A stretch of DNA of 64,000 nucleotides from Capsulimonas corticalis (GTDB lineage Bacteria; Armatimonadota; Armatimonadia; Armatimonadales; Capsulimonadaceae). Under the pieces are notes generated by a model that was given only the letters and a program-made list of their open reading frames with translations, was not told where the DNA came from and ran no database searches. Each line of letters opens with the position of its first letter. Within the stretch, counting starts at the first letter, position 1. Shown here one piece after another: positions 2,134 to 55,342 of the stretch. The translations under genes and the position numbers were made by a program. Location: contig NZ_AP025739.1 in the NCBI RefSeq assembly GCF_003574315.2, positions 6,386,001 through 6,450,000 of the forward strand. The letters are read 5' to 3'.

Positions 2134-4245
2134 TTAATGCTGTGCGCCCAGGCGACCGCCGGTCGTGCTGCCGCCGAACATCGTGGCGAGAACCGCCAGC
2201 ACTTCGTCAGCCGTCTCCTGCTTGAGCGTTTGTCGAACCTTGCCGTCAAGGGAAATGTTAATGATGGTTGGTCGCTTCGCCGCCTGGAGGAGCGCAGCCT
2301 TCATGGGATCCGCCGTCTTCGCCCCCGGGCCGCCGAGGGAACGGAAGAAGCGCCGGCCAATACCTGTGCGCTTCAGGACCTCGTCGTCGGAAATTCCGCC
2401 GCCGCCGATGATCGTCGCGATCGTTCGATCCATCAAATCGCGTTTGTCGGCGATCTTGGCGATTCGCGCTTTTTGTTGGAACTCTTCCGCCTCGTCCAGC
2501 AGCTTGTATTTCGCTCGATCGTCGGTGGCGAGCTTGGCGTTCGCCAGCAGCAGGTCATGCGCCTTCATGAGGTGCGCGATCTCGGTCGCCTTCGCGGCGT
2601 TCATTTGCTGCTGGGTGGCGTGCTGGTCCTTCAGGAGCGCGAGCTCGCGCTCATCGTGCTTGATGTTGTATTGGAGGTCCGCCGGCAGTTCGTATTTGTT
2701 CGCGGCCTCGCCGGCGGCTTCCTTGGCGCGAGTGGCGGCATCGGCTTTCGACATGTCGCCAGCAGTCTTCGCCTCAGCGGCTGCCTTGGCTTTCATCGCG
2801 GCGCGCTGCGGCGCGCCGCCCAGACGCATGAACATGTCATGCGTCTGGGCCATCTCACGCAGAAGCTTCGGATCATTAGGATGATCGCGCAACTTCTTGC
2901 GCAGGTCGGCCATACGGTTGATCTGGGCGGATAGATCCGTGACGCCGTCCCCGCGCAGCTTTGCGTCGTTCTCGGCCATCTGCTCGCCGAGGATTTTGTA
3001 TGCGCCGACGGCCGCCATGATCGCAGGAGTTGCGAGTATCGCCCCGCCGATGAGACCGGGAACGAGGGCGCCGGTTCCTTTGAGCCCGAAGCCGCCCATT
3101 TTCGCGATTCGGCCGGTCGCCCCCTCCGCCGCGCCCATGAAGCCGATCTTTCCAGGCATAGAGGCAAGCAGGTTCTTGAGAGCCTGCCATCTCGTAATGG
3201 TGCTGCCGAGTTCGCCTTTTTCTTTATCCAGAGTGCCGAGCTTATCGATCTCTGCTTTGTTCTCGTCCTTCGCGGCGATTTCTGCAAGTTTTTTGGCTCC
3301 GGCAAGACCTTTGAATCCTTTGCCGGAGGAATCGGCGGCAATCTTCGCGAGGTTGGCGGATGTCCTGAAATCACGAAGAGAGCTCGCGATTTTGAGCGCG
3401 GTCCCCACCGCGATCAGTCCGGCGGCCATACCGAGGAATTTGTCTCCAGCGCCAGGAACGTTTTTTATTGCGTCAGACACATTATTGATGGAATCCGCAA
3501 CCTTGTTGAGAATTGCGATCGTTGTGGTTAGCTTCGCCGCTCCTAGATTCGCCTGAAGACCGGTGATCGAGTCTTCGATCATGGAGGAGCTGCCGGATAA
3601 TGTCGTCCGTGATAGTTTCTCGTCGAGACCGGTATCCCCGCGCTTGGCCATAATCGAACGGATCGCCGCAAACGCCTGCTCCGGGGTAATTTTGCCTTGA
3701 ACGGTTTGTCCTGGCTTATACGGTAACCCGGCCGCCTCAAAGACTGCCGCTGTACTGATGCCAAGGCGAGGGAAGCCTTGCTGTCCGAGCGCGGATCCCG
3801 TTCGCCCAGTCTGGAGACGCTCCCACAGATTCGCCACTTCCTGAAGAGGCTTCCCGGTTGCCGCCGCAAGGTCGGCGATGTCCTTCAGATTATCCTTGAC
3901 ACTCATCTGATGAAGAACGAGCGACTGGGCGGCCTGACTGATTTCGAGGTATGTCGCCTTGGAAGCCAGACCGTACTTCTGGGCGAAGTCGAGATCAAAC
4001 GCAGCCTTTTGGGCGCCTTCGACCGCCGCCATTGCCTTCTTGATCTCATCGAGCTGGCCTGCAACTTTGATGGACTTCACGCCAAACGCGAGAGCGGCTG
4101 ACCCTGCGCCCAGGAAAACATTCCCCATGGCATTCAGGCGAGCGGTCTTGCCGGCGAATTCGTCTTGATTATTTGCAATTTTCCGCAGGACCGGGCTGAA
4201 ATCGTCCTGAAGAATTGCGCGCGTCAGCATCGTCTCGAATGACAT
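2134..4245 (-). CDS. Tail tape measure protein
   Basis: A 703-residue protein that should set tail length and line the tail tube before DNA ejection. The first 120 residues (FSPVLRKIANNQ, then QLDEIKKAMAAVEG) match the N-terminal helical region of the TP901 tape-measure type. Hydrophobic, glycine-rich helices at about 270-300 and 390-430 resemble the membrane-active segment of such proteins. Long charged helices rich in Ala, Lys and Glu follow (440-650). It is the largest protein of the late operon and precedes the tail hub, as expected. At 703 residues it is short for a siphophage, implying a short tail if undivided. Confidence 0.85.
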   Translation of the reverse strand: MSFETMLTRAILQDDFSPVLRKIANNQDEFAGKTARLNAMGNVFLGAGSAALAFGVKSIKVAGQLDEIKKAMAAVEGAQKAAFDLDFAQKYGLASKATYLEISQAAQSLVLHQMSVKDNLKDIADLAAATGKPLQEVANLWERLQTGRTGSALGQQGFPRLGISTAAVFEAAGLPYKPGQTVQGKITPEQAFAAIRSIMAKRGDTGLDEKLSRTTLSGSSSMIEDSITGLQANLGAAKLTTTIAILNKVADSINNVSDAIKNVPGAGDKFLGMAAGLIAVGTALKIASSLRDFRTSANLAKIAADSSGKGFKGLAGAKKLAEIAAKDENKAEIDKLGTLDKEKGELGSTITRWQALKNLLASMPGKIGFMGAAEGATGRIAKMGGFGLKGTGALVPGLIGGAILATPAIMAAVGAYKILGEQMAENDAKLRGDGVTDLSAQINRMADLRKKLRDHPNDPKLLREMAQTHDMFMRLGGAPQRAAMKAKAAAEAKTAGDMSKADAATRAKEAAGEAANKYELPADLQYNIKHDERELALLKDQHATQQQMNAAKATEIAHLMKAHDLLLANAKLATDDRAKYKLLDEAEEFQQKARIAKIADKRDLMDRTIATIIGGGGISDDEVLKRTGIGRRFFRSLGGPGAKTADPMKAALLQAAKRPTIINISLDGKVRQTLKQETADEVLAVLATMFGGSTTGGRLGAQH

Positions 4246-4325
4246 ATGGAATACACTTTCACAGGAGAACTGAACGCAATCCTTTGAGTCCTGGCGCCTG
4301 GGAATTAATCAATCGGAAACAACAA

Positions 4326-4349
4326 GAGCCTCGGCAGTTGCCGAGGCTC
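4326..4349. terminator. Hairpin with T-tract, probable bidirectional terminator
   Basis: An 11-bp perfect stem (4326-4336 with 4339-4349) with a 2-base loop, followed by TTTTCTTG on the + strand. It separates the tape-measure gene from the leftward regulator gene at 4440-4892. The T-tract favours stopping rightward transcription. The other strand has a weaker tract (CTTGTT). Confidence 0.6.
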
Positions 4350-4439
4350 GTTTTCTTGTATTGGTGTCAGTATCGCGCTATTCTGGGAGAAGCTTCAAAA
4401 ATTCGTCATTTTAGGAGAGCCTACGAACTTTGGCTGCCG

Positions 4440-4892
4440 TTATTCTGCTTCTTCGCCCAGTTTAGACATCACATCGCGTACCGCAACCGCGTAAGTCGAG
4501 CCTACTGGGATCTCTAGGTTTTGGCAATACACCGCCGCCAATACATCTGTACAGTTCCACAGACGACCAAGCAGCCAACGAATAGGCTTGTCTTCTCCGC
4601 CCACTTCCACAACACTGGATTCCTCAGTCAAGTCGCACCATTCACAGAACGCGTCACGCAGATGTGATGGGGCATGTCCCTTTCTCAAGCGATTAGGTGA
4701 CCCTGCGGGCCGCCCGCGCTCCAACGACCCACCTCGCCGTTCAAGATAGGCTTGTAAGTCTGTCTCTTCGACTGCCCATGCTCGCTCATTGATCTTGTGA
4801 AGGTTTACTCCTGCATTCTCCAAAGCCCTTTTTATACTTGAGCGCGAAACTCCGGCCTTTGTCGCCGCATCCGGCATTCCTATAAGTACCAT
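4440..4892 (-). CDS. Small putative DNA-binding protein (helix-turn-helix)
   Basis: 150 residues. Residues 6-50 (PDAATKAGVSRSSIKRALE, then a basic stretch and WAVEETDLQAYLERRGG) look like an excisionase or MerR-type helix-turn-helix with a wing. The remainder (WCDLTEES, GRLWNCTDVLAAVYC) is unrecognised. ATG 4892 lies exactly six bases after a TATAAT box and has no Shine-Dalgarno, so the mRNA is probably leaderless; Met6 (4877) is a fallback start with ATAGGA upstream. It is transcribed divergently from the rep cassette at 5036-7386, so it could regulate that cassette. Function is inferred only. Confidence 0.55.
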   Translation of the reverse strand: MVLIGMPDAATKAGVSRSSIKRALENAGVNLHKINERAWAVEETDLQAYLERRGGSLERGRPAGSPNRLRKGHAPSHLRDAFCEWCDLTEESSVVEVGGEDKPIRWLLGRLWNCTDVLAAVYCQNLEIPVGSTYAVAVRDVMSKLGEEAE

Positions 4893-4898
4893 GGATTC

Positions 4899-4904
4899 AT
4901 TATA
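4899..4904 (-). promoter_or_regulatory. -10 box of a leaderless promoter
   Basis: TATAAT on the minus strand, six bases before ATG 4892. Transcription would start at or next to the A of the start codon. The same spacing recurs at 49879, 51932 and 57260. No clear -35 box was found at 17 bases. Confidence 0.5.
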
Positions 4905-4937
4905 GCATAATATATTGCAACGTGTGCATCTTTATAC

Positions 4938-4966
4938 TTGACAAATAATGCGACATGTGTTACAAT
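4938..4966 (+). promoter_or_regulatory. Strong sigma-70 type promoter for the rep cassette
   Basis: TTGACA at 4938-4943 and TACAAT at 4961-4966 are separated by exactly 17 bases. The start would be near 4973, giving a leader of about 60 bases before the first gene. This is the best consensus promoter in the window and makes the 5.0-7.4 kb cassette independent of the leftward late operon around it. Confidence 0.75.
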
Positions 4967-5035
4967 ATATTAAGTTCAAAGAAAAACGCCGACCGTCTCT
5001 CCTGGAAAAAGTAACGATCGGCGCAGTGCGAAAGG

Positions 5036-5452
5036 ATGACTCTCACAATGTATTTTGACACAACAGGCGCACAAAAAGTTGCAGCCGCCGCCCCAAAGAA
5101 TTTCGCCGAGCTATCCTGGATCCGCGAGCAGGACCGCCAGAGCGCGCGTATCGCCGCCGCCGACGGCGCCGCAATCTCCGCGACCTTTTATTCCGTTCAA
5201 GACATCATCAGCCGCGCGTCCTTCGTTCGCAACGAGTGGGGAACGCTCACGGACTTCTCCGGTAAGTTTCTCCAAAGCGCCATGGATGTTACGATCGATG
5301 GATCGCGCTTCACCGTCTATTGCAAGAAAGGTGACGACGGACTGGAATGGTCCGCGCGCTGCCCGAGCCGTCGCCATCATCTCGCCGCCGCCGTCATCGA
5401 CGCGGTTCAGCGCCGGCTTGAGATGAGCCGCGCCCAGAAGGCGGTGAACTAA
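5036..5452 (+). CDS. Hypothetical protein, first gene of the rep cassette
   Basis: 138 residues, unrecognised. The N-terminal part is Ala-rich and helical. The C-terminal half has alternating beta pattern (VTIDGSRFTVYCKKGDDGLEW) and a final helix (HHLAAAVIDAVQRRLEMSR). GAAAGG abuts ATG 5036; ATG 5048 (MYFDTTG) is the better-spaced alternative start. It overlaps the next gene by one base (TAATG), so it is translationally coupled to the metallopeptidase-like gene. No membrane segment or signal peptide. Confidence 0.6.
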   Translation: MTLTMYFDTTGAQKVAAAAPKNFAELSWIREQDRQSARIAAADGAAISATFYSVQDIISRASFVRNEWGTLTDFSGKFLQSAMDVTIDGSRFTVYCKKGDDGLEWSARCPSRRHHLAAAVIDAVQRRLEMSRAQKAVN

Positions 5453-5985
5453 TGGTCCTGCAAAATGATCCTCAAAACCAGCCGACTTTCCGTACGATTT
5501 CGCGACGCGAGAAGCAGGACATTGCATCTGCTGTCGCACTCAAGATTAAAAGTCTCGTGAAGGGAGACCGCTCGGACGTCAGAAACTGGGTGAGGGCGGC
5601 TCACATCGTCGCCTTGATGGTGAAGACGGTTTCTTTCTGGTGTGCGGCGCAGCCAGAGATCGCGCATTTGGTCGATAAGACACGCGGGATATGCTGGAAA
5701 ATCCCGGAGATCAACGCATCCGAACACAACACGAATAAGCTCCGAGCGACCCTCATTATCTACGACGCGAGGCTGTCCGCCAAGGAGCAGATCCGGGTGC
5801 TGGCGCATGAAATGACGCACGCGATCCTCTGGAATACGGAATGGAGCTTTGAGCGCGATTTCGATCATCACGACGACTACGAAGGTTTTAATGGATCTCG
5901 TTATGATACCGTCGATCACCGGATCGCGCGCATGGTCGAGCACATCGTGGACAACCCCAAATTCTGGACCGAGCAGCAGGATTAA
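5452..5985 (+). CDS. Zinc metallopeptidase-like protein (HExxH)
   Basis: 177 residues. Residues 118-128 (AHEMTHAILWN) give a gluzincin-type HExxH with His119, Glu120 and His123. The acidic and His-rich stretch after it (DFDHHDDYEGF) may supply a third ligand. The upstream DARLSAKEQIRVLAHE is similar in layout to ImmA/IrrE and SprT-type phage peptidases, but I cannot assign the family firmly. It starts at the coupled ATG 5452 and is two bases from the rep gene. It may process a regulator of the cassette, by analogy with ImmA; that is inference. Confidence 0.6.
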   Translation: MVLQNDPQNQPTFRTISRREKQDIASAVALKIKSLVKGDRSDVRNWVRAAHIVALMVKTVSFWCAAQPEIAHLVDKTRGICWKIPEINASEHNTNKLRATLIIYDARLSAKEQIRVLAHEMTHAILWNTEWSFERDFDHHDDYEGFNGSRYDTVDHRIARMVEHIVDNPKFWTEQQD

Positions 5986-5987
5986 CC

Positions 5988-6860
5988 ATGTCCGAACAGG
6001 CCGACGAAACCTTCATCATGGTCCCGGATTCCGTCCTTGCGCGAACGGACTTGCAGCCGAACGAGAAACTCTTGTTCGGCCTTGTCTCCTCGCTCGCTTC
6101 CGGGCACGGTTACTGCTGGGCGTCGAACGCCTATCTCGCGAAGCGAATCGGCGTCAGTGACCGCCATGTCAAGAGACTGCTGTCCGAAATCGAGAAACGC
6201 CAAATGATCCGAAGCATTGTTCACAAGGACCGTCGCAATCAACGGCATATCTATATTACGTACTGCACGGTGCAGGTCCCTAGTGATCCACAGGTCCCTA
6301 GTGATCCACAGGTCCCTAGTGATCCACAGGTCCTTAGTGATCCACAGGTCCTTAGTGATCCACAGGTCCTTAGTGATCCACAGGTCCTCTCCTCGGGATC
6401 TACAGATCCCGACCCTAGGGACACGTGGGTCCTGTCATCGGGACACGTACGTCACCACGCTAGGGACGGAGGTGTCCCCATAATAGATAATCTAAAAGAA
6501 AACAAAAAAGAAAGAGAAAAAAGAATTGAAGAAATAGCGCCGGAATCGCGCGCTAACGCGCAAGATACTCTCTCTCCAGATTCTTCGTTTTTTGATCCTC
6601 TTTCTCCGGAGAAAAAAACAGACGAAGAAAAAGGCCGCCTCGGCGACATCGTTTGCGAAGTCGTTGTGTCTCACGAATCGAGAACTCTTTCGCGTCGCAC
6701 GAAGAAACAGGATTGGTCCGGAATGGATGATAAAGGCCGTCAGCCTTACCGCGAGGCGGCGCGGATCGAACTCATTGGGCTTGGGATCGACTGCCCACCG
6801 GCGTTGGCAATTGAAAGCCGGGCGTTTAACCTTTGGACACTTCACCAGAAAGCAGGGTAA
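5988..6860 (+). CDS. Helix-turn-helix replication initiator-like protein with internal iterons
   Basis: 290 residues. Residues 1-95 form a winged helix-turn-helix (LQPNEKLLFGLVSSLASGHG, then NAYLAKRIGVSDRHVKRLLSEIEKR) of the type found at the N-terminus of phage O-like and plasmid replication proteins. Residues 96-131 are six hexapeptide repeats (QVPSDP or QVLSDP) encoded by perfect 18-bp DNA repeats. A low-complexity Lys/Glu-rich stretch follows (LKENKKEREKRIEEI), encoded by very A-rich DNA. The C-terminal region (about 205-290) has a small domain with basic residues. The layout (HTH, iterons in the coding sequence, then an AT-rich tract) parallels lambda O. Replication function is inferred. 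Confidence 0.65.
   Translation: MSEQADETFIMVPDSVLARTDLQPNEKLLFGLVSSLASGHGYCWASNAYLAKRIGVSDRHVKRLLSEIEKRQMIRSIVHKDRRNQRHIYITYCTVQVPSDPQVPSDPQVPSDPQVLSDPQVLSDPQVLSDPQVLSSGSTDPDPRDTWVLSSGHVRHHARDGGVPIIDNLKENKKEREKRIEEIAPESRANAQDTLSPDSSFFDPLSPEKKTDEEKGRLGDIVCEVVVSHESRTLSRRTKKQDWSGMDDKGRQPYREAARIELIGLGIDCPPALAIESRAFNLWTLHQKAG
6273..6388 (+). repeat. Six 18-bp iterons inside the rep gene (putative origin)
   Basis: Six direct 18-bp copies start at 6273, 6291, 6309, 6327, 6345 and 6363. The unit is CAGGTCCCTAGTGATCCA in copies 1-3 and CAGGTCCTTAGTGATCCA in copies 4-6. A truncated seventh begins at 6381. Diverged CTAGGGAC and GGGTCC motifs continue to about 6470. There are no spacers, so this is not a CRISPR array. 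Period-18 iterons that keep the reading frame are typical of initiator-binding sites located inside initiator genes. Confidence 0.75.
6481..6540 (+). other. A-rich tract, candidate DNA unwinding element
   Basis: About 60 bases that are mostly A on the + strand, within an otherwise G+C-rich region and starting about 100 bp after the iterons. It is coding (rep residues about 165-184). By analogy with the AT-rich region next to the lambda iterons it could be where strands open. Inferred from composition and position. Confidence 0.4.
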
Positions 6861-6864
6861 CTCG

Positions 6865-7386
6865 ATGATGCACATACCAATATTCCGACTTGCTGAAGAA
6901 TTGGGACTTGACAGATCTAGTCTACTCAAATTCATCAAGAAATCTGGGTTCCAAATCATTACCTTACCGCGCACGCTGGGATCGCGCGGGCAAGCAGTTT
7001 CCGCTCTTACGAACGAAGATGCGGCACTGGTGCGAAAGTTACGTGGTTGTGGAGTGGAGCACCAAAAGGAAATGGCCCCGTCAGATCTACAAGGATATTT
7101 CTACGCAATCCAAATCATCCCTGAATTTGTTTCTATAAGAGTCAGACTTGGCTTCACAAGTGATGTATCGGCTCAATTGGTGGCTGTCCGTGTTTCGGCC
7201 CCAACGGCAATGCTCCTTAAGTTATGGCGTTGTCGTCCAGCATGGCAGGCGGCAGTCATTGATTCGATAACTCGTAGCGGATCAAAAATGATCCTCGGCG
7301 AAATCTACGAGTTCGATAGTGTAGAAGAAATGCTCTTGAGAGCAGACGCCTTTTTCACTCTCATGCCTGTCGATCCTACTCCTTAG
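6865..7386 (+). CDS. Hypothetical protein, possible T5orf172/GIY-YIG-like domain
   Basis: 173 residues from ATG 6865, four bases after the rep stop. Residues 1-45 (IFRLAEELGLDRSSLLKFIKKSG) look like a small helix-turn-helix. Residues 75-165 (FYAIQIIPEFVSIRVRLGFTSD, then LLKLWRCRPAWQAAVIDSI and IYEFDS) resemble the T5orf172/MUG113 branch of GIY-YIG folds: a beta strand ending in GFTSD, then a W, then a glutamate near EFDS. The usual catalytic Arg and Tyr are not clear. It is the last gene of the cassette, followed by a strong terminator. Confidence 0.55.
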   Translation: MMHIPIFRLAEELGLDRSSLLKFIKKSGFQIITLPRTLGSRGQAVSALTNEDAALVRKLRGCGVEHQKEMAPSDLQGYFYAIQIIPEFVSIRVRLGFTSDVSAQLVAVRVSAPTAMLLKLWRCRPAWQAAVIDSITRSGSKMILGEIYEFDSVEEMLLRADAFFTLMPVDPTP

Positions 7387-7422
7387 CACGCCGTGGTGCG
7401 GCCGGCAAGGACCGTCCATCAT

Positions 7423-7459
7423 AGAAGGACCGCTCTCCCGAATGGAGAGCGGTCCTTCT
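7423..7459. terminator. Strong bidirectional terminator
   Basis: A 16-bp perfect stem (7423-7438 with 7444-7459) and a 5-base loop lie between the convergent end of the rep cassette and the leftward tail genes. No long T-tract follows on either strand, but stem strength and position between convergent genes support termination both ways. Confidence 0.65.
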
Positions 7460-7478
7460 GCTGCGCCATCGGCGACGA

Positions 7479-8096
7479 TCAATTCTCCGACACCCCATCA
7501 TACACCGCGCCAGCGGCCGCGAATAATCCCGCAGTGACACCTATCGATACAGCGCTAAAGGCGCTGTATCCGCCTACGCTCGCCGAACCTTCTCCCATTG
7601 CGCCAAAACTGCCCGTAGACCCGCTCACCGGAGCGGAAGAGCGATTGTTCTCCGCAATCCCGCGTTTGATTTCTTTATCGACAGCATCGTGGAACGATTT
7701 CGTCGTTTTCAGGACGACGACGCGCATGATATCGCGCTTGCGCTCCCGGACGGTGCCGACCATGAACTTCGCGTGTTGAGAATCGTTCCAAATTGATACC
7801 GTCCACCGGTTTCCCGACTGCTGAACCCGCGTCCGCCACGAGTTCGCGAAATCGCCGCCACCAATATTGATCAGGTAGTCAGGAAATCCTGCGCTGCCAG
7901 CCGGCAGACGAGTGGCGTACGGATTGCCTTTATCTCTCAAGTCCTTTTTCGTAAGGCTGCCATGCGAGAGATTTTCCGCCACTCTTTTCATTTCGGTTGC
8001 ATGCAGTTTTGCAGCCGTTCGGAAACGAGCTTCGATATTACCGGCCAGGATACGTTTTCGAGCGGCAAGAGCCCCCGCATTGGTCACGAATGCCAT
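7479..8096 (-). CDS. Hypothetical structural protein of the tail operon
   Basis: 205 residues. N-terminal helices (ARFRTAAKLHATEMKRVAENLSHG) are followed by a beta-rich part (PDYLINIGGGDFANSWRTRVQQSGNRWTVSIWND). This resembles HK97 gp10-like connector or tail-completion proteins in size and secondary structure. The last 50 residues are Ser/Gly/Ala-rich. It sits between the tail assembly chaperone and the inserted cassette, so it is read late. Family assignment is uncertain. Confidence 0.5.
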   Translation of the reverse strand: MAFVTNAGALAARKRILAGNIEARFRTAAKLHATEMKRVAENLSHGSLTKKDLRDKGNPYATRLPAGSAGFPDYLINIGGGDFANSWRTRVQQSGNRWTVSIWNDSQHAKFMVGTVRERKRDIMRVVVLKTTKSFHDAVDKEIKRGIAENNRSSAPVSGSTGSFGAMGEGSASVGGYSAFSAVSIGVTAGLFAAAGAVYDGVSEN

Positions 8097-8112: not shown

Positions 8113-8732
8113 CTATTGATCAAATACATCATCCCAAGTCTGTGACTTACTCTCAATCAAAATTTCTTCCATTGCGAGGTTACGATACATTTCCGTTAGC
8201 GGGATACCTGGATTCATTCGATTGTATGCCTCTGGAGTCGTGTGGAGCGTCTTCAGGCAGAAAGCGCGCCACCTTACTCCAAAGGGTCGCCGCCCTCTTC
8301 CCCTTCGTTGATCTCAGCCTTGGCAGCGCCGATACCGTCAGGAACTTCCTCATCTCCAGGCTTTAGCGGATCAGAAATAAGGCGTGAGCAAACCCAGGCC
8401 CGGACATGGAGGGCGCCCAGAAATGCGAATCCTTCCGCCGCGAACTGAAGCCATTCAAGCGCTGTCAATTTTGGTTCCGTGACGCACGCAGACACCCAGC
8501 ACGCCGCTTTGATATCGCCGTGGTCCGGCTTGTAGACTTGCCCGGTAACCGGGTGCGTCACGGGAATTGGCAACCTCTTCAAGTGCTCTATTTCCGCATT
8601 CACGGCCTCAAGCTCGTCTTTCTTAGTAACGCCACGGATATGAGCGCTACCTCCAAGCTCCTCCACGAGAAAATCCTCCTCAAGTGGCTCAGGGCTTTTG
8701 TAGGCCAATAACTGCTCTTTAGTCAGATACAT
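8113..8732 (-). CDS. Tail assembly chaperone, -1 frameshift product (gpGT-like)
   Basis: The heptamer CCCTTTG at 8286-8280 (minus strand) is in the X_XXY_YYZ register: zero-frame codons are CCT TTG, four bases before the zero-frame TAA. A -1 slip after CCC TTT opens 55 further codons (GGA at 8280 to TAG at 8113-8115), giving about 206 residues instead of 152. The extension includes PGIPLTEMYRNLAMEEILIES and ends QTWDDVFDQ. Lambda-type tail chaperones (G and G-T) use this arrangement between the tube and tape-measure genes, which matches the gene order here. Inferred, but site, register and an open extension all agree. Confidence 0.75.
8274..8732 (-). CDS. Tail assembly chaperone, zero-frame product (gpG-like)
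   Basis: 152 residues, mostly helical and acidic, with a Glu/Gly-rich end (EGEEGGDPLE). It follows the tail tube gene and precedes the tape-measure region, the conserved place for the chaperone that coats the tape measure during tail assembly. It ends just past a slippery sequence that allows the longer fusion. No enzymatic motif. The HPVTGQVYKPDHGDI stretch near residue 60 is unrecognised. Confidence 0.65.
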   Translation of the reverse strand: MYLTKEQLLAYKSPEPLEEDFLVEELGGSAHIRGVTKKDELEAVNAEIEHLKRLPIPVTHPVTGQVYKPDHGDIKAACWVSACVTEPKLTALEWLQFAAEGFAFLGALHVRAWVCSRLISDPLKPGDEEVPDGIGAAKAEINEGEEGGDPLE

Positions 8733-18629: not shown

Positions 18630-18680
18630 GGGAAGGCTTTCGTCGGGGGAATGTCGTGAGAATCAAAGAGTTCCGATCTC

Positions 18681-18780
18681 ACGACAGATCTATTCTTACG
18701 ACAGATCTATTCTTACGACAGATCTATTCTTACGACAGATCTATTCTCTCGGCAGATCTACTCTTACGATAGATCTACTT
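18681..18780. repeat. Six tandem 17-bp repeats containing AGATCT
   Basis: Unit ACGACAGATCTATTCTT, copies start at 18681, 18698, 18715, 18732, 18749 and 18766; the last is cut to 15 bases. Copies 1-3 are identical, copy 4 differs only at its last base, copies 5-6 are diverged. The array fills most of the portal-protease spacer and overlaps the portal stop codon (18775-18777). No spacers, so not CRISPR. Function unknown; binding-site array is plausible. Confidence 0.75.
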
Positions 18781-29628: not shown

Positions 29629-30651
29629 TCAACGCGTCGCCTTCGGGCGGCCGTCATCGGTGAAGTTCGGATCCCAAAACGGATCCTCGCTGTCGGGAAG
29701 CACCTGCTGGCGGTGGTCGCTGCCGGCGATAGAGATGAGCGGACAGCGACCGTAAAGCCGGCTGACGATCCGCTCGTCATATCGATCCGTCAGCTCGTCC
29801 ACCGAGAGATTGGTGGTCACGAACGTCGTTTTCTGCATGCGCCACCGATGCTCCAGCAGCTCCATGATCTGTCCGCGCGCCCATTCGCCTCTGGTGCTCA
29901 CTGGCTCCGCGCCCAGATCGTCGAGGACCAAAAACTGTGGCCGCTCCACGAACCATTTACGAAGCTGGGTCGTGCTCGGCACATCCGTCTGGCCCTCGGT
30001 CCGGCTGAACGAATCGCGGTAGTAGCGCAGCAGCTCCTGCTCGGTGATATACCGGGCGTTCACGTCGCGGCCATGCCGGCGGATGATCGAGCAAAGTGTT
30101 GCGAACGCGAGATAAGTCTTCCCCACACCGCTCCGTCCCGTCAGCGTCAGGCCCTTGTGCCCGGGTGTCCACTCCTCGGCGAGGCGCTTGCAGAGACCAT
30201 GCGCGAGGCGGTTCCCGTCGTCGATCCGCAGCGGCCCCAAAAACTCCGTCGCCTCGAAATTGGCCTTGCGGAAGTGAGGCGGAATCCGTGCGTCCTCCAT
30301 CGCCGTATGCACGAGCCCCGCGACCCGCTGCTCACGACGTCTTTGAATATCATCATCGCCTTTGCGCCTGATTCCGAGGTTACTTTGATGGACAATCCGG
30401 GTGTGGTAGACAAGCTTGTCCGCAGCAAATGGCTTGATCATGCCCTTGTCCGCCATCGCATAGATCTCGTCTTCATAGTCCTTGAGCGTTCTTTGGGGCC
30501 GAGTGTAAGTCCCGACGCACAGGCCGTCACGGTGACGCTTCTGGCCGGAGATGGGCGAAATGGTCGCGGCGCGGCGCTGGACTTGCTCCGCAACCTCGGC
30601 CTGGGTCGTGTCTGCCGTTACTGCTGGATTTGAAATCACCTGGTTTCCCAC
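29629..30651 (-). CDS. DnaC-like helicase loader ATPase
   Basis: 340 residues from GTG 30651, preceded by AAAGG at good spacing; the longer frame begins only with TTG. AAA+ core: Walker A GRSGVGKT at 172-179, Walker B LVLDDLG at 241-247, sensor TTN at 279-281, Arg-rich DERIVSRL. N-terminal region (120 residues) basic and likely contacts DnaB. Loads host helicase at the phage origin together with the DnaD/DnaT-like gene upstream, which it overlaps. Confidence 0.85.
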   Translation of the reverse strand: MGNQVISNPAVTADTTQAEVAEQVQRRAATISPISGQKRHRDGLCVGTYTRPQRTLKDYEDEIYAMADKGMIKPFAADKLVYHTRIVHQSNLGIRRKGDDDIQRRREQRVAGLVHTAMEDARIPPHFRKANFEATEFLGPLRIDDGNRLAHGLCKRLAEEWTPGHKGLTLTGRSGVGKTYLAFATLCSIIRRHGRDVNARYITEQELLRYYRDSFSRTEGQTDVPSTTQLRKWFVERPQFLVLDDLGAEPVSTRGEWARGQIMELLEHRWRMQKTTFVTTNLSVDELTDRYDERIVSRLYGRCPLISIAGSDHRQQVLPDSEDPFWDPNFTDDGRPKATR

Positions 30652-31687
30652 TGGTCTTGCCTTTCTCCGCCTTGTTCTGTGAGTCGGTCTTGCTGCGCTC
30701 AATGTCGAGCGCGTTGAACGGAACGTTGCTGACGAAATCGAAATCCGTCAGCCACTTCGCCGGCGCTTTGATACAGCGCATCTCGCTTTGCGTCGGCGGC
30801 CTCGCCGAGAACGGCGCCAGGTGCATCTCGATCTGCGCGATCTGCTCGTGCGATGGCTGCACCTGATCCCAGGCGGCGGCGATCTGGTGAGGCGCCTGCT
30901 GCCGGGGATACTTCAACCGAAAACTCTCGAACGCCTGCGGCTCGTGCCGCGGTACTCCTGAAGCGGCGCGGACGGGCGACCTCGGCGGCGGCGCAGCAGT
31001 CTCTCCTGGCATCCCCGGCCACGCCTCATCGGCGGATCCCGGTCGATCGCCAAGCCCAATCCTGGAAGTCTCTTCCTGCGGCGCTTCGGACTGAGATCCG
31101 TTCTCCCCATGAGAAGCGCCTGCCTCATCCCCCATAGAGAGAGTGAGAGATTCCTGATTCGAAAGTGAAGGAGAAGGAGAACAACGCCCGCGTGGGTTAT
31201 CATTTGACGGCAAGTGCGCGTCATCGCGCGCAAATGCGCGCACTTGCGCGCTGTCGTCATCATCCTCGGAATTCTGCGCTCCACTTACACCCTTTGCGCT
31301 CGGAAGCGCGGGCCATGCGGGGTTCGCCGGAAACTTGGACTGATCGCACATACGCTTGGCGGTCCGGATATGAGTCTGGAAGGAGAACCATTTGTCCGGA
31401 TGGATGGCCATGTACTTTTTATTGTCGACTTCGTAGAGGCCTATGAGCCCCTGGCGCGCGTAGATCTCAATGAAAGATGCAATCTCGGGGATACCTACCA
31501 GCGGATTCATCGGCACGATCCGAGCCTTGACGCGCGCGGCCGATGCCGGCGCGCGTCCCCAGTCGTCGAAGAACGTCAGAAACCATGGCCAGAAGAGCGC
31601 CGCCATCGGGCACTCCTCGGTCTCAATGATTTCGGTTAGCGAGTCGTCCTCGCTCATATCGTTCGTGATAAAAATCTTGCGCGCCAT
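30527..31687 (-). CDS. Phage replisome organiser-like protein
   Basis: 386 residues. Residues 1-115 (DSLTEIIETEECPMAALFWPWFLTFFDDWGR to EIASFIEIYARQGLIGLYEVDNKKYMAIHPDKW) form the winged helix typical of phage replisome organisers. A disordered Ser/Pro/Glu middle follows, then a helical DnaD/DnaT-like end (FRLKYPRQQAPHQIAAAWDQVQ, PTQSEMRCIKAPAKWLTDFDF). It binds origin DNA and recruits the loader encoded next. Overlaps dnaC by 125 bases. Confidence 0.7.
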   Translation of the reverse strand: MARKIFITNDMSEDDSLTEIIETEECPMAALFWPWFLTFFDDWGRAPASAARVKARIVPMNPLVGIPEIASFIEIYARQGLIGLYEVDNKKYMAIHPDKWFSFQTHIRTAKRMCDQSKFPANPAWPALPSAKGVSGAQNSEDDDDSAQVRAFARDDAHLPSNDNPRGRCSPSPSLSNQESLTLSMGDEAGASHGENGSQSEAPQEETSRIGLGDRPGSADEAWPGMPGETAAPPPRSPVRAASGVPRHEPQAFESFRLKYPRQQAPHQIAAAWDQVQPSHEQIAQIEMHLAPFSARPPTQSEMRCIKAPAKWLTDFDFVSNVPFNALDIERSKTDSQNKAEKGKTSGKPGDFKSSSNGRHDPGRGCGASPAPRRDHFAHLRPEASP

Positions 31688-53764: not shown

Positions 53765-55342
53765 ATGACCACGAGGAAACAAGTCCACCTTTCCTTCACC
53801 CCGCTTCGGTACTGCATTTACCGCCGCGTCAGCAAAGAAAGCCAGGTCGAGCGCGATCTCTCCCTTCCCGAGCAGGAAGCGCAGCAGATCGCCTATGTCG
53901 CGGCGCGCGGCGGCGTGGTCACGCACAACTTCCAGGACGGAGGTATCAGCGCCTGGGGAGAGAAGGGCGATCAGCGCGCCGAGTTCCAAAAGGCGATCAC
54001 CTGCGCCAAGGCCGGCGAGTACGATGTCTTTCTAATCCATAAATCCGATCGCGTTTTTCGGTACCGTACGCACGCTGTTACATACAAGCATCTCCTCAAG
54101 CAATATGGCGTGAAGGTGGAAAGCGTCACCGAGCCATGGGTGGGCGGGGACGATCCCTCCGAGAAGCTGATCGAAGGCGTTATGGAGTGCGTCTCGGAAT
54201 TTCACAGCGATAATCTTTCGACGGAACTCAAAAAGGGAATCCACAGCGCGGCCGCCAATAAAGGTCGCCAGCACGGTCCGCCCGTCTATGGTTACCGTTA
54301 TGCCGAGCCCGGCGTGCGCGGCGCCGGCTGGGCGCTCGACGATGAGGCCGCGCGCTGGGTCAAATGGATATTCGAGACGTACGTCGGACAGCGCGCCATG
54401 CTCGTCGATCTCGCCCGGCAGCTGAACGCCATGAAGATCCGTCCACCCGGCACGAACGGCGCGCGCCGCAACGTTTACCTCGACGGCTGGCAGGCGCAAA
54501 CGATCTCCCACATGCTCCGAAACATCGTCTATACCGGCCAGTGTAAATTGAATGGCGATGTCTTTCCCGGCGCCCATCCGGCCATCATCACCGCCGAGAC
54601 CTTCGCCCAGGCCCAAATCCTCGTAGAGGCCCGCCGCCCTGGGAAGATCTCGGAGATTGACGCCATGTTCGCCGGCGGTCTCCTGCTCTGCCCGCACTGC
54701 GTCGAAGCAGGACGCAAGAGCGTCCTGCACACCCATATCCGCAGTCCAAAAACGGGCAAGCGCGAAGCCTGCTACGTCTGCTCCGTTCGCATGGGAATGT
54801 ACCGCGCGAAGGGATCCGGACTTGCCCCATCGCAGGAGTGTCCGGGTTTCAACATCATGGAGGGTAAGATTAGGCGAATGGTTATTGAAAGCCTGGAACG
54901 GATCCGGAACGAGGGCGGGATCGTGGAACTGCTCGCCGAGCATCCACATCTCGCCGAACGCCTCCTGGAGCCGCCGCCGCTTGAGGCGCCGTCCCCGCAC
55001 CCCGACCCGCAAATCATACGCAAAGAGCTTGACCTGATCCCAACACGCATCATGGCCCTCTCCGATCAGAACCAGCGCGGCTACATTACGCTCGATCAGA
55101 TGGGAAACGCCATCGCCGAAATCGAGCGCACGAAGACACTGCTGCTGGAGCAGCTCGCGATCGCCGAGACCGCGCGTCCACTGAAGCTCCTGAAGCCTTT
55201 CGACGCCCATCGCCTGCTCGTGATGATCCAGAGCAATCAGCACACCACCGAGGAAAAGCGCGCATTCCTTCAGGATTGGCTTGCTGGGATCCTGGTTTCC
55301 GCTGACAAAAAGTTGGTGGATTTCCGCATTCCTCAGCTGTAG
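53765..55342 (+). CDS. Large serine integrase
   Basis: 525 residues. Resolvase domain 16-150 with catalytic Ser23 (YRRVSKES) and KSDRVFRYR; recombinase domain from about 165 (HGPPVYGYRYAEPG); zinc ribbon (LLCPHC...CYVCSV) and a C-terminal coiled coil (NAIAEIERTKTLLLEQLAIAET) as in phage serine integrases. No Shine-Dalgarno. Adjacent to the truncated phage B capsid gene, matching the att site position. Confidence 0.9.
   Translation: MTTRKQVHLSFTPLRYCIYRRVSKESQVERDLSLPEQEAQQIAYVAARGGVVTHNFQDGGISAWGEKGDQRAEFQKAITCAKAGEYDVFLIHKSDRVFRYRTHAVTYKHLLKQYGVKVESVTEPWVGGDDPSEKLIEGVMECVSEFHSDNLSTELKKGIHSAAANKGRQHGPPVYGYRYAEPGVRGAGWALDDEAARWVKWIFETYVGQRAMLVDLARQLNAMKIRPPGTNGARRNVYLDGWQAQTISHMLRNIVYTGQCKLNGDVFPGAHPAIITAETFAQAQILVEARRPGKISEIDAMFAGGLLLCPHCVEAGRKSVLHTHIRSPKTGKREACYVCSVRMGMYRAKGSGLAPSQECPGFNIMEGKIRRMVIESLERIRNEGGIVELLAEHPHLAERLLEPPPLEAPSPHPDPQIIRKELDLIPTRIMALSDQNQRGYITLDQMGNAIAEIERTKTLLLEQLAIAETARPLKLLKPFDAHRLLVMIQSNQHTTEEKRAFLQDWLAGILVSADKKLVDFRIPQL

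Follow-up and report, generated by a model that had tools for sequence, protein, structure and literature searches.

A cassette of five genes in the tail operon of a Capsulimonas corticalis prophage is probably an accessory, separately switched replication module, controlled by its own repressor and carrying its origin inside its initiator gene, judging from its sequence and its relatives. The cassette lies in a stretch of 64,000 nucleotides (the window; genome bases 6386001-6450000 of a single-contig genome of 7.65 Mb), between a tape-measure gene that ends at 4245 and a tail-region gene that starts at 7479. It comprises a regulator gene reading leftwards from 4892 and a four-gene operon reading rightwards, antisense to the tail operon, and its predicted origin, at ~6.3-6.5 kb, would be the second of the prophage. 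We favour this reading because of the HTH_36 and PHROG matches of the initiator, the annotations and helicase neighbours of its relatives, the co-location of iterons and an AT-rich tract, and the conserved switch that the cassette possesses. Phage replication modules normally occur once per genome, in the early region. A second module, probably under its own repression, that lies antisense in the tail operon and has its switch in common with a further operon of its prophage is an unusual combination.

The third gene of the operon (5988-6860, plus strand) encodes an O-like replication initiator of 290 amino acids. Its residues 21-70 correspond to an HTH_36 winged helix (PF13730, 37.3 bits with a cut-off of 25, E 2.4e-9), its best PHROG match was the replication-initiation family phrog_270 (E 3.7e-15), and eight PHROG initiator or loader families matched it below 1e-5. 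The original prediction, made from the DNA letters alone, had called this gene rep-like, and the matches bear it out. Thirty phage records matched the N-terminal part at 27-40% identity, and relatives also occur on plasmid records of 35-60 kb. We fetched nine phage relatives and compared their gene contexts. The homologous gene is annotated as an initiator or replication protein in eight of the nine and as an HTH protein in the other, and a gene for DnaB or a helicase loader adjoins it in most of them; in phage CAP the initiator gene has no adjoining helicase or loader. Repeated peptides, read by eye, directly follow the winged helix in most of the relatives' translations (e.g., PPDKNVGTPPDKIVTTPPDKNVG in Cormatin, ESLGGIPKN three times in CAP, and TTKLSTPTTKLSTP in phi39:1). 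A second HTH_36-like gene of the same genome (6.92 Mb, L010:7574-8542), 28% identical to the cassette initiator, carries repeats with a TGTCCCA core behind its winged helix, of which GTCCC is common to the cassette iteron GGTCCCTAG. This second gene adjoins a gene pair resembling an insertion sequence.

The candidate origin lies within the initiator gene. An array of six full copies and one partial copy of an 18-bp unit, CAGGTCC(C/T)TAGTGATCCA, occupies 6273-6388 on the plus strand (Tandem Repeats Finder: 18 bp x 6.4, 98% matches); the copies are in frame and encode QVPSDP or QVLSDP, in agreement with the six in-frame iterons that had been predicted. Allowing one mismatch and counting both strands, nine members of a 9-mer family were found in the gene, and twelve codon shuffles gave at most four. 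Further downstream, two inverted half-iterons CTAGGGAC at 6415 and 6460 (6415-6467, minus strand) carry the same core as the array on the opposite strand. The GTCCCTAG/CTAGGGAC core occurs five times in the 64 kb, in all cases within 6276-6467, with three occurrences in the array and the two inverted ones. The half-iteron stretch encodes a peptide unrelated to that of the array, and two or more cores arose there in only 4 of 20000 codon shuffles, which argues for selection on the DNA beyond the repetition of a peptide. No iteron was detected in the rest of the window or in the four flanking stretches scanned. An AT-rich tract, a candidate unwinding element, follows at 6477-6536 and begins ~90 bp downstream of the array. 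With 21.7% GC, it ranks second in AT content among the 60-bp sites of window positions 1-55400, where only 0.02% of the 60-bp windows are lower in GC. An A-rich tract after the iterons, as in lambda O, had been foreseen, and winged helix, iterons and AT-rich tract together follow the lambda layout of an in-gene origin.

The operon has a promoter at 4938-4966 (plus strand; TTGACA-17-TACAAT, 11 of 12 consensus positions, extended TG), as the original prediction had stated in placing a consensus promoter at 4938. On the minus strand, a second promoter (4928-4899, 10/12 match) serves the regulator. Its -10 element TATAAT (4904-4899) ends 6 nt before the regulator ATG at 4892, so that transcription is expected to begin at the ATG or next to it and the message is apparently leaderless; a similar spacing in regulator homologues indicates the same layout. 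The predicted divergent leaderless arrangement is therefore present, although the gene itself (4440-4892, minus strand) falls outside the span 4893-7459 that had been assigned to the cassette. The regulator has 150 amino acids and an N-terminus possibly of the HTH_17/AlpA kind, with weak matches to HTH_17 (E 0.02) and to the excisionase/regulator family phrog_66 (E 0.0018), and its C-terminus weakly matches BRA0787_fam. Inverted arms of 14 nt at 4908-4921 and 4959-4972, 93% complementary, form a candidate operator around the divergent promoters.

The four operon genes are all open and separated by gaps of at most 4 bp. Gene 1 (5036-5452, plus strand, 138 amino acids) has no assigned function. 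Gene 2 (5452-5985, plus strand, 177 amino acids) encodes an ImmA/IrrE-like metallopeptidase of the M78 type (PF06114 Peptidase_M78, 22.3 bits with a cut-off of 22), in which the HExxH motif reads HEMTH, consistent with the metallopeptidase-like gene proposed earlier. Gene 4 (6865-7386, plus strand, 173 amino acids), an open reading frame of no assigned function, matched no Pfam, NCBIfam or PHROG family, and its N-terminus is weakly similar to the IF-2 N-terminal domain (E 0.37). Searches of phage and plasmid sequences, of GTDB contigs and of the phylum set gave no convincing homologue of it. A match that would have marked gene 4 as a GIY-YIG homing endonuclease was discarded as circular, since the query had been written with gene 4 in view and hit gene 4 alone, and a single-sequence structure model of the protein was unusable (pLDDT 34). 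Hence, of the operon's genes, the earlier list contained the peptidase and rep genes and left genes 1 and 4 unmentioned. The third-position GC content was 0.45-0.55 in the regulator, initiator and gene 4, 0.69-0.71 in genes 1 and 2, and 0.59-0.86 in the tail and head genes measured.

The switch of the cassette is not confined to it. When the cassette DNA was compared with the whole genome, a 38-bp match was obtained 35 kb leftwards, at 6,355.9 kb; it corresponds to the promoter of another divergent unit (genome 6,355.5-6,358.8 kb; L022:4499-7839) in the same prophage. The promoter pattern TTGACAAATAATGCGNNATGTNNTACAATATAT was found at exactly two sites in the 7.65-Mb genome when up to three mismatches were allowed. 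The second regulator (128 amino acids) is 44% identical over 72 residues to the cassette regulator and has the leaderless layout as well, and the first gene behind the second switch is 30% identical over 77 residues to cassette gene 1. Behind it come DUF3560 and then PAPS-reductase-like genes. A perfect 16-bp dyad surrounds the second promoter; the cassette arms differ from it and are less perfect, and such diverged operators would fit two switches without cross-talk. In the phylum set of 291 genomes, strong regulator homologues outside this genome were found in one genome only (G006, n = 2; L023 and L024), with 56-58% identity over ~70 residues. Both are divergent to serine recombinase genes, different ones, and each adjoins a copy of the same ~150-residue gene. 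In this prophage and in G006, the switch stands upstream of unlike gene sets, so that one kind of regulator-promoter unit serves different operons across related elements. That the same switch occurs twice in one prophage, and that a related genome has its regulator in divergent orientation to serine recombinase genes, is new. This recurring switch, with its common promoter framework and diverged operators, provides a concrete marker for finding further such cassettes.

Both switches lie in one prophage of ~99.8 kb, as indicated by its shared end core and by the capsid-like frame restored on its removal. The ends were placed at window ~55448 (genome ~6,441,448) and at genome ~6,341,666 (L021:5666). 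ACCAATGT is common to both ends, and inverted 16-bp arms, TTGATGTATTCGGTAA and TTACCGAATACATCAA, flank it inside the element, a symmetry of the sort that the attP site of a large serine recombinase should have; a gene for such a recombinase (53765-55342) stops ~100 bp from the right end. Joining the prophage flanks in silico produced one open capsid-like reading frame, the two parts of which match Phage_capsid_4 and Phage_capsid_3 weakly, under the curated cut-offs. On this sequence evidence, the serine-recombinase prophage sits inside the capsid gene of another prophage. The prophage also has another replication pair (29629-31687, minus strand), made up of an initiator (30527-31687; phrog_1408, E 1.1e-6) and a DnaC-like loader (29629-30702; phrog_50, E 1.3e-39), which confirms the DnaC and replisome-organiser pair that had been noticed 24 kb away. 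This loader, 23 kb from the cassette initiator, is the nearest one and could serve that initiator in trans.

From these features we propose how the cassette may operate. In the lysogen, the regulator would silence the operon by binding the dyad around the divergent promoters. Upon derepression, the four genes would be read against the tail operon, and the M78 peptidase may help to lift repression by cleaving the regulator, as ImmA does for ImmR. The initiator would then bind the iterons in its own gene, the adjoining A-rich tract would melt, and a host or phage helicase could be loaded, which would fire a second origin besides that of the 30-kb initiator/DnaC pair. Given the antisense operon and its bounding hairpins, tail transcription must read through the cassette or be blocked when it is active. 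It is conceivable, although we regard it as doubtful, that the prophage possesses two independently repressed origins and that firing and transcription of the antisense one compete with expression of the tail genes, permitting a mode of replication outside the lytic programme, such as amplification in which no virions are assembled. If the proposal is correct, a replication module is able to travel as a cassette under its own control, which would raise the question of which origin a prophage uses and when.

The hairpins bound the cassette on both sides. On the left, a two-way intrinsic terminator-like hairpin (4326-4349; 10-bp stem, T-rich tail on both strands, ~-22 kcal/mol) separates the regulator from the tape-measure gene. 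On the right, a perfect hairpin (7423-7459; 16-bp arms, 5-nt loop, -33 kcal/mol) closes the cassette. The latter had been described as a strong terminator; the strong hairpin is there, but neither strand has a T-run, and the term was an overstatement. No integrase reading frame was found in 4246-7478, repeats between the two flanks did not exceed 7 bp, and the cassette contains no transposase, primase or packaging gene and no target duplication. It sits between genes and interrupts none. As its ends carry no repeats, excision or transposition of the cassette was rejected. In the set of 291 genomes, only two others (G005 and G003) have a homologue of the probable tail assembly chaperone of this prophage, and neither has a replication cassette next to it; the tail regions of both are decayed or end soon afterwards, so that this absence is support rather than proof.

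These observations bear on the suggestion that the cassette is the remnant of a captured mini-replicon or satellite, a plasmid-like or satellite-like element that once replicated by itself, settled among the late genes and is perhaps still able to replicate independently. The completeness of the unit (regulator, promoter, initiator, origin and closing hairpins) speaks for it, as do the plasmid-borne relatives of the initiator and the absence of the cassette beside the two chaperones. Against it stand the lack of integrase, transposase, primase, att site and target duplication, the short flank repeats and the uninterrupted neighbours, and the switch is shared with an operon of the same prophage that consists of genes other than replication genes (DUF3560, PAPS-reductase-like). 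The sharing of the switch, together with the G006 recombinase genes, speaks for a reshuffling of modules between related phages no less than for capture. We therefore consider a captured remnant unlikely. Of the satellite-like element originally envisaged, what stands is a self-contained and separately regulated replication module, reversed within the late operon, as supported by its anatomy, the initiator relatives and the two decayed relatives without it. The satellite character does not stand, with no integrase, flank repeat above 7 bp, interrupted gene or packaging gene, and capture is possible but unproven. The proposed comparison with relatives lacking the cassette did find two, by way of the chaperone, both decayed or contig-limited.

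The other explanations fare no better. Chance expansion of a minisatellite in a decaying gene, with no initiation at all, would account for six near-identical copies, which imply a recent expansion, and for the want of close relatives; four open and tightly packed genes, half-iterons inverted outside the array with an AT-rich tract beside them, and the repeated peptides that distant initiators have in the corresponding position make such an inert relic rather improbable. That the initiator and iterons instead serve as a decoy, titrating or misdirecting the replication of superinfecting relatives with the same iterons, has a precedent in lambda, whose replication is arrested when the cell contains ori-lambda copies at ectopic sites (PMC4488673), and the confinement of the iteron to the cassette in the stretches scanned agrees with it. 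A full, repressed initiator operon exceeds what a decoy needs, however, and a related phage sharing these iterons did not turn up, so we hold this to be highly unlikely. Finally, a regulator, a peptidase and an initiator are what an early region typically contains, as if the cassette were simply the normal early region of the phage and ordinary in its relatives. The same prophage, however, has the second complete replication pair as well as an HTH_3 repressor with an adjoining possible peptidase at 49.9-50.9 kb, and the two chaperone-bearing relatives, though both decayed, lack the cassette at that place; this explanation has very little probability.

The accessory-module reading itself has evidence to contend with. 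The C-terminal domain of the initiator has no match of any kind, no close relative of the initiator was found that could show selection, and the cassette contains no helicase or loader gene, the gene next to the initiator being the 173-residue gene 4. In addition, DNA 9-mer repeats exceed codon shuffles in few of the relatives, and this comparison is qualitative, the peptide repeats having been read by eye. In IMG/VR, no close relative was confirmed for the initiator, tape measure, peptidase, tail-tube gene, capsid, chaperone or regulator.

The surroundings of the cassette are those of a tail region. The left neighbour (2134-4245, minus strand, 703 amino acids) is 30% identical over 161 residues to annotated tape-measure proteins of the Geobacillus phages TP-84 and PK2.1, and the right neighbour (7479-8096, minus strand, 205 amino acids) is an open reading frame whose similarity to neck or tail-completion proteins is insignificant. 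The probable tail assembly chaperone (8274-8732, minus strand) lies near the tape measure; among its homologues, that in G003 stands behind a homologue of the gene at the tail-tube position. Both belong to decayed tail remnants (L034 in G005, L039 in G003), and G005 also keeps the end of a tape-measure protein. Elsewhere in the window, a tandem array of a 17-bp unit (18677-18777, 5.9 copies) was observed between the portal and protease genes, and a scan for RNA families returned two tRNAs and nothing more. The ~99.8-kb prophage has a tyrosine integrase gene at its left end, and a gene pair inside it (L021:8729-13415) resembles, by eye, an error-prone polymerase set (ImuB-like and DnaE2-like).

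Several known systems resemble the cassette in part. In the ImmR/ImmA switch of ICEBs1, an HTH regulator and an M78 peptidase belong to one control region, whereas here the peptidase is in the divergent operon and the regulator belongs to a type other than that of ImmR (HTH_3). Morons, with their own promoter and terminator, are likewise insulated inserts between late genes in reverse orientation, but they are fitness genes expressed in the lysogen and not multi-gene replication modules with their own regulator. As to these features, the cassette shows a promoter (11/12) and a canonical left terminator next to a right hairpin without a T-run, and the places in G005 and G003 that lack it are decayed or contig-limited. 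Helper-embedded PICI satellites (HE-PICIs) are the known satellites that lie within late genes; they have an integrase and a primase, split a late gene and run in its direction (PMC10111431). They are similar in placing a replication-competent unit (here a predicted one) with a small HTH regulator among prophage late genes. Membership was rejected, as the cassette has neither integrase nor primase, lies antisense between genes and has the O-like initiator as its sole replication gene. In lambda, the central part of the initiator gene holds four to six iterons and an AT-rich tract (PMC7466680), and the cassette shares the succession of tandem iterons and AT-rich tract as well as, on the proposed reading, the repressor-controlled operon; it differs in the missing P-like neighbour, the 18-bp head-to-tail spacing, the tail-operon location and the presence of a second replication pair. 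The HTH_36 phage initiators (phrog_270, 428, 391 and 345; Flavonifractor phage Cormatin, Leuconostoc phage LLC-1 and Cellulophaga phage phi39:1) likewise have a winged helix followed by a repeat-coding linker, and most of those fetched differ from the cassette in that a DnaB or loader gene, instead of a gene such as gene 4, comes next. The usual adjoining helicase or loader is common in this class and not defining, and on the defining features tested, the cassette fits the HTH_36/O-like class with an in-gene origin.

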